Shown piece by piece: positions 30,067 through 34,320 of a stretch of DNA of 64,000 nt (position 1 is the stretch's first letter; each line of letters starts with the position of its first letter). The translations under genes were made by a program, and so were the position numbers. The notes beneath the pieces were generated by a model. That model searched no databases, was not told the origin of the DNA, and was given only the letters and a program-made list of their open reading frames with translations. The DNA comes from Massilia sp. UMI-21 (GTDB lineage Bacteria; Pseudomonadota; Gammaproteobacteria; Burkholderiales; Burkholderiaceae_D): positions 1,674,001 through 1,738,000 of the forward strand of contig CP063848.1 of the NCBI GenBank assembly GCA_015277795.1. Reading direction: 5' to 3'.

Positions 30067-30804
30067 ATGTCCTATATCCTCGAAGCCCTCAAGAAGGCAC
30101 AAGCCGAGCGCCAGCTCGGCAGCGCCCCGACCATCCACGCACCGGCGCCCGGCTATGCGCCCGCGGCGGCCCAGGGCAGCCGCCGTCCGCTCATGGTCGG
30201 CATCGGCGCCGGCGCCCTGGTGGTGGCGCTCGGTGCCTTGTTCCTGCTGCGCCAGCCGGCATCGGCGCCGGCAGCTGAGCCGGCAGCTGAGCCGGCATTG
30301 CAGGTGGCGGCCGCGCCGGCGCCCGTGGCTGCGCCGCTGTCCGTGCCGGCGCCGGCCGTTGCCGCGCCGGCGCCCGCCACCGTGCAAGCTGTGCCGGTTG
30401 CGCCACCCGCGCCACCCGCGCCGGCCAGGGTGGAACCGGTGAAGCCGAAGACGCCGCCGGCGCCCGCAGCGAAGCCGGCCCCCGCAGCGCGTGCAGCGGT
30501 CGAGGCGGCGCCGGAAACGCCGCGTCCCGTCCTGGTGGCGGCGGCCCCGGCGCAGGCGGCATTGCCCGCCGAGGACGGCATCGGCCCGCTGCAGTCGCTG
30601 CCGGAAGCGCTGCAGCGCGAGGTGCCGAAAGTGGCGTTCGGCGGCTACATCTATTCGGCGAATCCGGCCGATCGCCTGCTGCTGGTCGACAAGATGCTGC
30701 GCCGCGAAGGCGAGGAAGTCGCGCCCGGGCTGGTGCTGGAGCGCCTGCTGCCGAAGGCGGCGATCATGAATTTCCGTGGCTACCGCTACCGTGTCGGGTA
30801 TTGA
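30067..30804 (+). CDS. gspB: GspB-type secretin assembly factor
   Basis: A 245-residue protein beginning [18 protein letters not shown], the GspB hallmark. A membrane helix (residues about 42–60) is followed by a long Ala/Pro-rich periplasmic linker (to about residue 170) rich in short GC repeats. The C-terminal GspB domain ends with [21 protein letters not shown] region typical of the family. It partners GspA in moving the GspD secretin to the outer membrane. The mobB start lies inside its last codons. Confidence 0.92.
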
Positions 30805-31330
30805 TCCCCGGCCCGCTCCAGGCGCGCAATCCGGACGGGTGCTGGGCGTGGTCGGCTGGTCCGGCAGCGGCAAGACCTCGCTGCTGGAGCACCTGATCAC
30901 CCGCCTGGCCGGACAGGGGCTGCGGGTCAATGTCGTCAAGCACAGTCACCACGACGTCGAGCTGGAACCGCCGCGCAAGGACAGCGCGCGCCTGCGCATG
31001 GCCGGGGCGGCCGAGGTGATGCTGGCCTCGCCCTACCGGGTCGCCATCCTGCGCGAGCTGCGCGGGGAACGCGAGCCCGCGCTGGCCGAGCACCTGGCGC
31101 GGCTGGCGCCGGCCGACCTGACCCTGGTGGAAGGCTATAAATGGGAGCGCCTGCCCAAGCTGGAGGTGTTTCGTCCCGGCCTGGGCCGGCCGGCCCTGTA
31201 TCCGGACGATCCCGACGTCCTGGCGGTGGCCTCGGACGGGCCGCCGCCGGCAGGGCAGGGCGGGCCGGCGTGGCTGGATTTGAATGATCCAGATCAAGTA
31301 CTGGCCTGGCTGCACGACTGGATGGGCTGA
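30776..31330 (+). CDS. mobB: Molybdopterin-guanine dinucleotide biosynthesis protein B
   Basis: A GTP-binding P-loop protein (184 aa or 179 aa) that assists MobA in forming MGD cofactor. The P-loop [16 protein letters not shown] is near residue 28, followed by [27 protein letters not shown], the conserved MobB block, and [20 protein letters not shown] later. Two GTG starts are possible, at 30776 and 30791, both overlapping the end of gspB by 29 or 14 bp; the second is the shorter protein. mobA is not in the window. Confidence 0.9.
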
Positions 31331-31391
31331 CACCCTCAAGTTTTCGGCGCGGCTGCCGTCAATGGTGGATACGCCTAAAAGGGAGAACGAC

Positions 31392-31589
31392 ATGGATGTG
31401 TCCAGCATTGCCAAGCTGTCCACCAGCATCGCAGAAACCGGCACCCGCCAGGAAGTGAGCCTCGCCGTGTTCAAGAAAGCCCAGCAGATCCAGGAGGCGA
31501 CCGCCACCCAGCTGCTCGAGGCGCTGCCTGCCGTGCCCTCGGCGAACCTGCCGGCGCACCTGGGCAACAAGATCAATACCACGGCCTGA
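31392..31589 (+). CDS. YjfB-type putative motility protein
   Basis: A 65-residue protein beginning [18 protein letters not shown], with the central [19 protein letters not shown] stretch typical of the YjfB/putative motility protein family. It is a short helical protein without a signal. The ATG at 31392 follows GGGAG by 6 bp. No flagellar genes adjoin it, but the window also carries an isolated FliT-like gene at 38.3 kb. Function is unknown. Confidence 0.75.
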
Positions 31590-31653
31590 AGCGGCTTGCT
31601 TGTTTGCCGGGCCTGATCGATACTGGCGCCTTTCATCCAGCCGGGAGTACCGC

Positions 31654-31980
31654 ATGACCCACCGCCACGCCCTGATTGCCGCCGCGCTTGCCGGCGTCTG
31701 CGCCCACGCCGCCGCCCAGGACATGGGCACGCCGAAGGCCGACCAGGAAGCCTGCTATGGCGTGGCCAAGGCCGGCCAGAACGATTGCGGCACCGCCACC
31801 CACGGCTGCGCCGGCGTGGCCAAGGTCGACAATGATCCGAACGAGTGGAAGTTCGTCGCCAAGGGGACGTGCACCGAGCTCGGCGGTTCGCTGGAAGCCG
31901 GCCGGGGCGCGCAAGAAGGTGCACGACACAAGCGCGGGCAGGGCAAGGCTGGCGCGGCCAAGACCGAAGCGCAGCAGTAA
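31654..31980 (+). CDS. Bufferin-type RiPP precursor (DUF2282, BufA-like)
   Basis: A 108-residue exported DUF2282 protein. Residues 1–21 are a signal peptide ([15 protein letters not shown]). The mature part carries the family pattern: E-x-C34-Y-G-V-A-K-A-G-x-N-D-C45, then C52-A-G, then K-G-T-C73. Proteins of this pattern are bufferins, whose cysteines are modified by a DUF692/MNIO enzyme and which bind copper; that is established for related operons. The maturation enzyme gene starts 3 bp after this stop. The tail after residue 80 is basic, rich in Gly, Ala, Arg and Lys, and longer than usual. The ATG follows GGGAG by 6 bp. Confidence 0.85.
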
Positions 31981-31983
31981 GCC

Positions 31984-33663
31984 ATGCAGGCGCCCGCCGC
32001 GGCCCTGTGCGCCGGCGTGGGCCTGCGCGCGCCCCACTACCGTGCCTTCCTGGAACGGCGTCCGCCGGTCGGTTTCATCGAAGTCCACAGCGAGAACTAC
32101 CTGGCCCGCGCCGGCTGGGACTGGCACGTGCTGGGCACGCTGCGGCGCGACTATCCGCTCAGCCTGCACGGCGTCGGGCTCGGCCTCGGCTCGGCGCGCG
32201 GCTTTTCCATGGCCCACCTGGAACGGGTGCGCGCGCTGGTCGAGGCGCTCGATCCCTTCCTTGTTTCCGAGCACCTGAGCTGGGGCGCGCTGGCCGACCG
32301 CCAGCTCAACGACCTGCTGCCGGTGACGCTCGACGCCGCCGCCCTGGCCCTGCTGTGCGAGCGGGTCGACCGGGTCCAGGCGCGCCTCGGCCGCCGCCTG
32401 CTGGTCGAAAACGTCTCGCGCTACGTGCGCTTCAGTGCCGACACCATGAGCGAGGCCGAGTTCCTGGCCGAACTGGCGCGCCGCACCGGCTGCGCCATCC
32501 TGCTCGACCTGAACAATCTCTACGTCAACCAGCACAACCACGGCGAGGATGCGCGCGTCGCCATTGCCGCCTTGCCGGTCGGGAGCGTCGGCCAGATCCA
32601 CCTCGCCGGCCACCTGGAAACGCCGCTGGGCCTGGTCGACCACCACGGTGCGGCGGTGGCCGAACCGGTCTGGGACCTGTACCTTGCGGCACTGGCGCGT
32701 TTCGGCCGCGTGCCGGCGCTGGTCGAGTGGGATGCCGAGCTGCCGCCGCTCGAGGTGCTGGTGGCGCAAGCGGCGCGGGCCGACCAGGCCGCAGTAGCAT
32801 ATCCGGCGCCGCTGGCCGCGCCGGATATGCCACCGCGGCCACCGCGGCCACTGCGGCCGCCTGCGGCGGCGCCGGCGAGCGGCGAGGCACTGGCCGCGCT
32901 CCAGCAGCATTTCGGCGACGCCCTGTTCGACCGCCGCCGCGAGGCCGGCCTGCAGCCCCTGCTGAGCGAGGGCAGCATGGCGCGGCTGGCCTTGTATCGC
33001 GGCAACCTGAGCGCCGGCTGGGAGCGCGCCCTCGGCGCGGCCTATCCGGTCCTGCGCCAGCTGGTGGGGGAGGCGTTCTTCGACGGCCTGGCGCGCGCCT
33101 ATGGCAAGGCCGTGCCCTCGCAAGACCCCGACCTGGCCGGGTTCGGCGACCGTCTCGCGGACTTCCTCGCGGAATTCGCGCCGGCCGCGCCTTACCCCTA
33201 CCTGCCCGACATGGCGCGCCTCGAATGGGCCGTGCACCGCGCCGGCCTGGCGCCCGGGCTGGCGCCGCTCGGTGTCGATGCGCTCATGGCGATGACGCCC
33301 GAGACGCTCGAGGCCGCCCGTTTCATCCTGCATCCATCGGTGGCCCTGCTGCACAGCCGCTGGGCGATCGCGGCGCTCTGGCACGCGCACCAGCCGGGCG
33401 GCCCGGCGCTGCCTGCGCATGTGGCGCGGCCGTGCGCCGTGCTGGTGCTGCGGCGTGGGTGGACGCTGGAAGTGGTGGAGACCGACGCGCCGCAGGCGGC
33501 GGCCCTGGCGCGGCTGGCGGCCGGCGCCGGCTTCGGCGAGGCCGTCGACGCTGCGCTGGCCGCCGCCCCCGCAGGTGGCGGCGCGCCGGACATCGGCGCC
33601 ATGCTGCAGGGCTGGTTCGGGCGCGGCATGATCGCCGCAATCGCGCCGGGCGAAGCCGGCTGA
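31984..33663 (+). CDS. Fused bufferin maturation enzyme: MNIO (DUF692, BufB) plus BufC (DUF2063)
   Basis: A 559-residue protein made of two parts that are normally separate genes. Residues 1–265 form the DUF692 MNIO TIM barrel, with the expected metal ligands: H35 and E37 in VHSENY, H62 in LHGVG, H97 in SEHLSWG, E142-N143 in VENV, D175 and N177 in LLDLNN, H206 and H210 in IHLAGH, E248 and D250 in VEWD. Residues about 270–300 are a Pro/Arg linker. Residues 301–559 match DUF2063 (BufC/HvfC), with LALYRGNL and the [10 protein letters not shown] stretch. MNIO enzymes oxidise precursor cysteines using iron and oxygen; BufC recruits the precursor. The precursor gene lies 3 bp upstream. No DoxX or sigma/anti-sigma genes accompany them. 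Confidence 0.88.
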
Positions 33664-33690
33664 CGCCGCCGGAGCGGCTCGGAACGGCCT

Positions 33691-33972
33691 TTAATGGAAA
33701 GCGCGCAGGATGCGCTGCTCGCCGCTACGGTCACAGTAGCGCTCGTTGGCGGCGCGGGTGGCGGCCATCATGCGCTCGAGCTGGGCGTCTTCGAAGCGCG
33801 CGAGCTCTTCGTTGGCCGCTTCCAGCGCCAGCGCCAGCTTGGCGCGCGCATTCTGGTACAGCGCACTGGTGTAGTGATCGGTGTTTTTCAGCAGCTCTTC
33901 CGCGTTCTCGATGACGAGACGCAGGTCTCCGATGAGCTGCTCCTGGGATTGGGCGCGGTTCGGGGTTTCCAT
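33691..33972 (-). CDS. ElaB/YqjD/DUF883-like helical protein lacking the membrane anchor
   Basis: A 93-residue helical protein. Residues 10–30 (QLIGDLRLVIENAEELLKNT) match the N-terminal helix of the ElaB/YqjD/DUF883 family, which in other bacteria are inner-membrane, ribosome-associated stationary-phase proteins. Unlike them it has no C-terminal transmembrane helix; it ends in a polar CDRSGEQRILRAFH tail. It may therefore be a soluble relative or a shortened copy. It is convergent with the bufferin enzyme, only 27 bp away. Confidence 0.65.
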   Translation of the reverse strand: METPNRAQSQEQLIGDLRLVIENAEELLKNTDHYTSALYQNARAKLALALEAANEELARFEDAQLERMMAATRAANERYCDRSGEQRILRAFH

Positions 33973-34107
33973 CGCTTCACCTGTAAGTCGATTCTTGTGA
34001 CTTAAAATATAAACAAGGAAGCCCCGCTCTGTTTGTTAGGGCGCAAACATAAGCCCGCTGTTTTTGTTCGCCGTTCCGCCGCTTTCCGCCTCGGTTTTGC
34101 TGCGGTT

Positions 34108-34320
34108 TTACTGCACCCGGATCTGCAGGTCGCCGATGGTGACCGTCTGGCCGCTGCGGATTTTCGCGGTCTTGCGCAGCTCCTGCCTGCCGTCGACCGA
34201 CACCGCGCCGCTGGCGACCAGGTTCTTGCCGGCGCCGCCGCTGTCGACCAGGCCGACCAGCTTCAGCAGCTGGTTGACCTCGACGAATTCCGATGTCAAA
34301 TCGAACACTATTTTTTGCAT
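34108..34320 (-). CDS. S4-domain RNA-binding protein (YbcJ-like)
   Basis: A 70-residue stand-alone S4 domain. LNQLLKLVGLVDSGGAGKNL-type helix–turn and VASGAVSVDGRQELRKTAKI match YbcJ-family proteins, which bind RNA and are implicated in ribosome assembly. Nothing is attached to the domain. It is 56 bp downstream of fumC on the same strand and could be co-transcribed with it. Confidence 0.85.
   Translation of the reverse strand: MQKIVFDLTSEFVEVNQLLKLVGLVDSGGAGKNLVASGAVSVDGRQELRKTAKIRSGQTVTIGDLQIRVQ

Follow-up and report, generated by a model that had tools for sequence, protein, structure and literature searches.

The question raised by this locus is whether one protein in a Massilia genome really unites BufB and BufC, the maturase and the partner protein of bufferin systems, and what such a protein would do. 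The window analysed is a stretch of 64,000 nucleotides (positions 1674001-1738000 of a genome that consists of a single contig of 5.30 Mb), and the locus lies at 31654-33663 on its forward strand. We think it likely that the locus is a two-gene Buf1 bufferin system in which the maturase is a natural single-chain BufBC holoenzyme. An earlier note, made from the letters of the window, had placed both proteins in one chain at a bufferin locus, and domain, ligand, structural and comparative data support this; its coordinates and reading frames for bufA and bufBC are right. The fused gene has complete domains and a complete ligand set, is conserved, and occurs on several separate branches.

The larger of the two genes, bufBC (31984-33663, + strand), encodes a 559-residue protein in which an MNIO maturase is fused to a DUF2063-RRE partner. 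The MNIO (BufB) domain with its nine iron ligands occupies residues 10-269 (32011-32790; PF05114, MbnB_TglH_ChrH, E 5e-94), and the protein scores 339.7 bits with the NCBIfam model MNIO_BufB (NF050167), above the cut-off of 310. A Pro/Ala/Arg-rich linker at about residues 271-299 (32794-32880) leads to the BufC half, which contains a DUF2063 domain (residues 306-395, 32899-33168; PF09836, E 7.8e-20) and an RRE-like domain at about residues 445-555 (33316-33648), the two components of a PME type 1 partner; the NCBIfam HvfC model gives this half 36.8 bits, below its cut-off of 142. The gene order of a Buf1 operon is kept, with the separate bufB and bufC genes of such an operon fused in one 559-aa frame. 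Pfam and structure thus agree with the earlier description of a protein of this length, 3 bp after bufA, with an MNIO domain, a Pro-rich linker and DUF2063.

The ligands assigned by motif from TglH are H62, H97, E142, D175, H206 and E248, together with N178, D219 and H221; those given for TglH are His71, His107, Glu151, Asp184, His216 and Glu258 for Fe1/Fe2, and Asp184, Asn187, Asp229 and His231 for Fe3 (PMC10880893). Three of the BufBC ligands match by motif N175, D242 and H244 of HvfB, replacement of which is reported to have abolished activity (PMC13419390). All nine are present in each of the 226 MNIO domains compared, of which 103 are fused and 123 split, and are invariant in 59 aligned fused proteins. 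The claim of a complete MNIO ligand set is borne out, and a missing DUF692/MNIO ligand, looked for as the observation that would overturn the reading, was not found. The AlphaFold model of BufBC (pLDDT 92.1, pTM 0.91) is one particle with the halves placed confidently relative to each other. In fold searches the MNIO half matches TglH, MbnB and 3BWW and has the TIM-barrel MNIO fold, and the BufC half matches TglI and 3DEE, although a sequence search of the BufC half against solved structures (A3 profile) gave none at E 1. BufBC is accordingly predicted by modelling to form a single-chain holoenzyme in which, with high model confidence, the C-terminal DUF2063-RRE half would dock on the MNIO half of the same chain and the linker would merely tether the two.

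Upstream, bufA (31654-31980, + strand) encodes a Buf1 (DUF2282) bufferin precursor of 108 aa (PF10048, E 1.7e-21). By eye, its N-terminus has a basic n-region, a hydrophobic stretch and an AxA, consistent with a Sec signal peptide at about residues 1-21 (31654-31716), which possibly doubles as a leader for recognition. The DUF2282 domain (31747-31890, Pfam) has the four cysteines of a DUF2282 Buf1 precursor, with codons at 31753 (Cys34), 31786 (Cys45), 31807 (Cys52) and 31870 (Cys73), as had been proposed; a fifth, Cys16 (31699-31701), which went unmentioned, lies within this putative signal peptide. BufA2 is the only NCBIfam bufferin precursor model that BufA matches, at 27.5 bits against a cut-off of 60 and hence below it. 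The C-terminal tail with Lys/Arg (31891-31977) extends 29 residues beyond the domain, and its length and sequence vary among relatives; the long basic tail to which attention had been drawn is therefore real, but is unconserved between lineages, is rejected as a conserved element, and carries little weight.

A promoter-like pair, TTGCTT-17-GATACT, lies 5' of bufA at 31596-31624 (+ strand; by eye, weak), and the promoter-like stretch (TTGCAT or TTGCTT plus a CTGAT..ATACTG block) is present in nine of 12 aligned same-genus rows, two of which (L047 and L153) are identical. A sigma-70 scan upstream of bufA gave nothing at the scan threshold, no copper-responsive promoter element was recognised at the locus, and Rfam had no match at gathering scores across 30800-34300. 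A Shine-Dalgarno-like GGGAG precedes bufA at 31643-31647 (+ strand, by eye). The bufA stop codon TAA (31978-31980) is followed by GCC and then by the bufBC ATG at 31984, and this 3-bp gap suggests that both genes would be made from one message with coupled translation. We also note that bufA and bufBC share one reading frame, with only TAA GCC between them (31978-31984).

The single frame recurs in relatives. Within the window's genus, an MNIO gene is present in 13 of 18 sampled genomes (own included), and in each of the 13 it is fused. The GTDB family was sampled with 245 genomes, of which 149 have a match to the fused protein; the fused frame is present in at least 82 of the 245 (own included) and in 16 of 44 genera sampled, these fusion counts being minima since only part of the matching loci were fetched and classified. 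In a sample of the phylum, 146 of 398 genomes have a match; of 30 loci from it that were fetched and classified, two are fused (the window's own and one of the same genus) and 28 are not. One of the latter, L019, has its BufC part in two frames. The named loci comprise 21 fused and 59 split forms, and lean towards fused forms because they are the best 80 of 591 relatives of a fused query. The fused ones come from Massilia, Janthinobacterium, Duganella, Pseudoduganella and two further relatives, and also from Rhodoblastus sp. 17X3, one MAG like it, and an Arenicella MAG. Architecture was called with our own iterated HMMs on the fetched loci, and a Pfam check of the window and nine others (L147, L114, L116, L117, L163, L169, L178, L183 and L227) found both domains in each. 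At L124 (genome G238) the MNIO-DUF2063 frame appears broken.

Protein searches extend this picture. With BufBC as query, 1819 of the 7996 candidates scored reached E 1e-30, under a length filter (> ~307 aa) that excludes most stand-alone BufB; among the matches listed, 120 of 120 (own included) have both Pfam domains, with names that include 'MNIO family bufferin maturase [Massilia ...]'. Searches from the Rhodoblastus and L147 fusions gave both domains in 117 of 120 and 120 of 120 rows listed, and include Rubrivivax gelatinosus, Burkholderia cenocepacia, Ideonella, Hydrogenophaga, Chitinimonas and Hylemonella. Altogether, more than 350 two-domain MNIO-DUF2063 proteins are among the matches listed. 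The search for how common the fusion is, which the earlier note had suggested, thus shows it to be real and not peculiar to the strain; a restriction to strain or genus is rejected, as the fusion is widespread in the GTDB family and occurs outside it. Among plasmids, 353 records matched; in one of them a place spans 80% or more of the query, and each of the 40 records listed is from Burkholderia glumae and has two genes annotated separately.

These counts bear directly on the possibility that the fusion is an artefact of sequencing or assembly, a missed stop or frameshift in the linker. The linker region is GC-rich, and related split pairs, for example in Undibacterium, have bufB and bufC overlapping out of frame, such that a single indel would join them. 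No stop or frameshift was found in the BufBC linker, however, and the same single frame recurs in every MNIO-bearing genome sampled from the genus, in the family genomes counted above, and in named records of Massilia, Janthinobacterium, Duganella and Pseudoduganella; the missed stop, looked for as a refutation, is itself refuted by this recurrence, and we regard an artefact as so improbable that it can be set aside. It is also improbable, if not to the same degree, that BufBC is translated as one chain and acts as two, either because the linker is cut or because an internal start yields free BufC as well. The linker is modelled with low confidence (mean pLDDT of 55 for residues 281-290 and 64 for residues 291-300), its length varies from 8 to 71 residues (median 22) across the 59 fused proteins, and it contains an in-frame ATG at 32827, all of which would suit such an arrangement. 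Yet no Shine-Dalgarno-like stretch precedes this ATG by eye, and the Met at its position lies outside the invariant and nearly invariant columns of the 59 fused proteins, whereas L120 and L121, split pairs nested in the main fused clade, do have a BufC start of their own with a ribosome site, by eye. We favour a BufBC that is both made and used as one chain.

Fused and split pairs interleave on trees of the MNIO domain, which is expected if both forms do the same job. In an IQ-TREE analysis of 56 MNIO domains the fused/split label changes eight times, with seven changes forced by well-supported branches, and in a 70-row tree that includes 15 database proteins there are 12 changes, at least 11 of them forced, and a single change in 0% of 200 bootstrap trees. 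These trees are of the MNIO domain only, with rows chosen for contrast, so that the changes are not rates, and the two sets differ beyond the added proteins in a slightly different choice of loci. More than one independent sequence stands behind each of four fused lineages: the main Oxalobacteraceae clade, the Rhodoblastus clade, a Burkholderiales Buf2 clade and the pair P0193/P0202. L114 and L116, also a pair, could belong to the first of these or stand apart from it. The fused rows P0213 and P0219 are single sequences, and P0219 has a eukaryote as its source and may be contamination. Fusion thus seems to have arisen more than once, repeated fusion being the simplest reading of a tree that gives no direction. 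The splits at L120 and L121 may be fissions, as may some of the other changes. The out-of-frame overlap in Undibacterium is one possible route to fusion, and an in-register stop is another: in Rhizobium (L176 and L180) only one stop codon separates bufB from bufC, which share a frame.

The precursor beside the L147 fusion is a BufA2 (97.7 bits, above the cut-off of 60) and that beside the Rhodoblastus fusion is a DUF2282 protein, so both precursor families, Buf1 and Buf2, have fused enzymes. The L147 fusion lies outside the main clade, and its genome (G218) also has a split pair of Buf1 type (L139). A repeated origin of the fusion would be a separate line of genetic evidence that BufB and BufC work as a pair.

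Fusions between partner proteins are familiar, and for this reason BufBC is moderately, rather than highly, surprising. Our literature search covered main texts, with the founding bufferin paper, reportedly that of Leprevost et al., outside its scope. No natural MNIO-DUF2063-RRE fusion is described in the main texts searched, which include PMC12452194, PMC13419390, PMC13097082, PMC10880893, PMC12710340, PMC8719888, PMC12141560, PMC12636315 and PMC12538549. The locus most closely resembles the bufABC of Caulobacter vibrioides-type Buf1 systems, with a DUF2282 precursor (four Cys and a likely signal peptide), an MNIO maturase and a DUF2063-RRE (PME type 1) partner in the order A-B-C, but differs in that B and C are one protein and in that no DoxX or sigma/anti-sigma genes are adjacent among the neighbours scanned. 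TglHI and MbnBC, unlike BufBC, are two chains with other precursors and products. MovX and ChrH are natural MNIOs with an extra domain, as BufBC is, and are named as exceptions to separate partners in PMC13419390; the extra domain is a C-terminal winged-helix/RRE-type domain in MovX and a domain of unknown function in ChrH, and neither is described in the main texts of PMC13419390 and PMC12452194 as carrying a full DUF2063-RRE partner. PMC12636315 describes a ChrH-family fusion that involves another domain, and a landscape paper, in its main text, lists precursor fusions and gives PME1 proteins a narrow size range.

A further parallel is artificial. In the HvfBC fusion of the Haemophilus oxazolin maturase (PMC13419390, a July 2026 preprint) the MNIO C-terminus is likewise joined to the partner N-terminus, but that protein is laboratory-made, has no linker and acts on an oxazolin EGKCG precursor, whereas BufBC is natural and is paired with a DUF2282 precursor. 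According to the same preprint, the majority of the MNIO enzymes characterised require a partner in order to work, HvfB needs HvfC to reach its active Fe(II)/Fe(III) state, the contact of HvfB with its partner is so weak that the fusion was built to study HvfB, and the fusion gave more product than co-expressed HvfB and HvfC. In BufBC nature supplies what enzymologists had to build, and natural fusions would give stable 1:1 enzymes for iron chemistry and crystallography. A bolder proposal, which we advance tentatively and judge to fall somewhat short of probable, is that recurrent fusion in at least four lineages, with both Buf1 and Buf2 precursors, solves a weak, activity-limiting BufB-BufC contact; the tether would keep the mixed-valent iron site on and catch the precursor before Sec, and the BufA signal peptide would be a true dual-purpose leader. 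If this is so, the fused proteins are ready-made single-chain MNIO holoenzymes.

The conservation of the precursors offers some guidance on recognition. A four-Cys ORF lies upstream of all 103 fused loci, chosen by pattern; on reading, those at L106, L107 and L114 are wrong-frame matches and the remainder resemble precursors. The four core cysteines are invariant in 81 distinct main-clade precursors aligned, partly by construction since the ORFs were chosen with a four-Cys pattern. Over residues 2-17, BufA has a mean pairwise identity of 0.77, against 0.48 for TolB in the same 20 genomes, and of 0.78, against 0.65 for SurA in the same 13 genomes, while BufA residues 18-30 reach only 0.41 and 0.35 in the TolB and SurA genome sets respectively. 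With these two controls, conservation of the n- and h-regions of the signal peptide (31654-31704) is a hint, at the level of sequence, of a role in recognition. It fits both the preference of HvfBC for full-length precursor (PMC13419390) and the inclusion of the Buf1 signal peptide in the recognition sequence, which PMC12452194 states in preliminary form, and it bears on the remark in PMC12710340 that no specific motif is seen for DUF2063-type RREs whose paired precursors are of the DUF2282 type. With natural fusions one can test what keeps a precursor that bears a Sec signal back until it has been modified.

A cysteine of the Cys16 type is present in the signal peptide of 87 of 98 fused and five of 100 split precursors scorable by pattern, and two of the five are L120 and L121, within the fused clade. 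The fusions L116, L117, L178 and L183 are without it (L147 and L227 are unscored), and the unrelated control protein SurA carries a Cys in its signal peptide in each of 13 genomes. Cys16 was dropped as a hallmark of fused systems on both counts, and in BufA it is probably a lineage habit, to judge from these alignments.

MNIO, DUF2282 and DUF2063 each have a single match in the genome, so that BufA has BufBC as its only enzyme. By analogy with characterised relatives, BufBC probably modifies the adjacent BufA and the product is probably a thiooxazole copper binder. The RRE half would bind uncleaved BufA, probably through the signal peptide, as its relatives and the conservation described above suggest, and the MNIO half, with a mixed-valent di-iron centre, would oxidise Cys45 and Cys52, probably to 5-thiooxazoles as in Caulobacter Buf1. 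Sec would then export the product, a Cys34-Cys73 disulphide would form, and the product would buffer excess copper; the chemistry, the disulphide and the copper role of Buf1 are given in PMC12452194. The tether would guarantee a 1:1 stoichiometry and activate an otherwise weakly paired enzyme. We infer the thiooxazoles on Cys45 and Cys52, the signal-peptide recognition and the copper buffering, and MNIO type alone does not prove the product. It is conceivable that the modified peptide serves another metal or stress, or that the locus is dispensable in the genus. Operons of the bufferin type also go by the name gold-induced (gig), and roles that extend past copper have been proposed (PMC12452194); the neighbours scanned include no recognised copper gene or regulator, and MNIO was not found in five of the 18 sampled genomes of the genus. 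Against this, Caulobacter Buf1 is reported to chelate Cu(I) and Cu(II) (PMC12452194), and the gene order around the locus is common to the named Massilia, Janthinobacterium, Duganella and Pseudoduganella loci. On balance we find this alternative unlikely and prefer a copper-buffering product.

The suggestion that two genes constitute the whole system is consistent with the neighbourhood: no DoxX or sigma factor is found among the neighbour genes scanned, and the sole DoxX gene reported in the genome is about 0.53 Mb from the locus. DoxX occurs in the fetched flanks of 26 of 103 fused versus 84 of 123 split loci, and beside one of the 13 fused loci in the window's genus; the first two are minimum counts, and all come from one query, with flanks of ~1.5 kb for most loci and 6 kb for named loci and with some genomes counted twice. 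A 65-aa gene of the YjfB_motility family (31392-31589) lies directly before bufA. The upstream neighbours comprise this gene, an AAA ATPase with a peptidoglycan-binding domain, a T2SSB protein and MobB, and those on the opposite strand are DUF883, an S4 protein and fumarase C. BLAST relatives of mobB and DUF883 are found at 17 of 21 other fused named loci compared, with the DUF883 beside L166 confirmed by Pfam, a pattern that points to long-standing vertical inheritance of the locus in the group.
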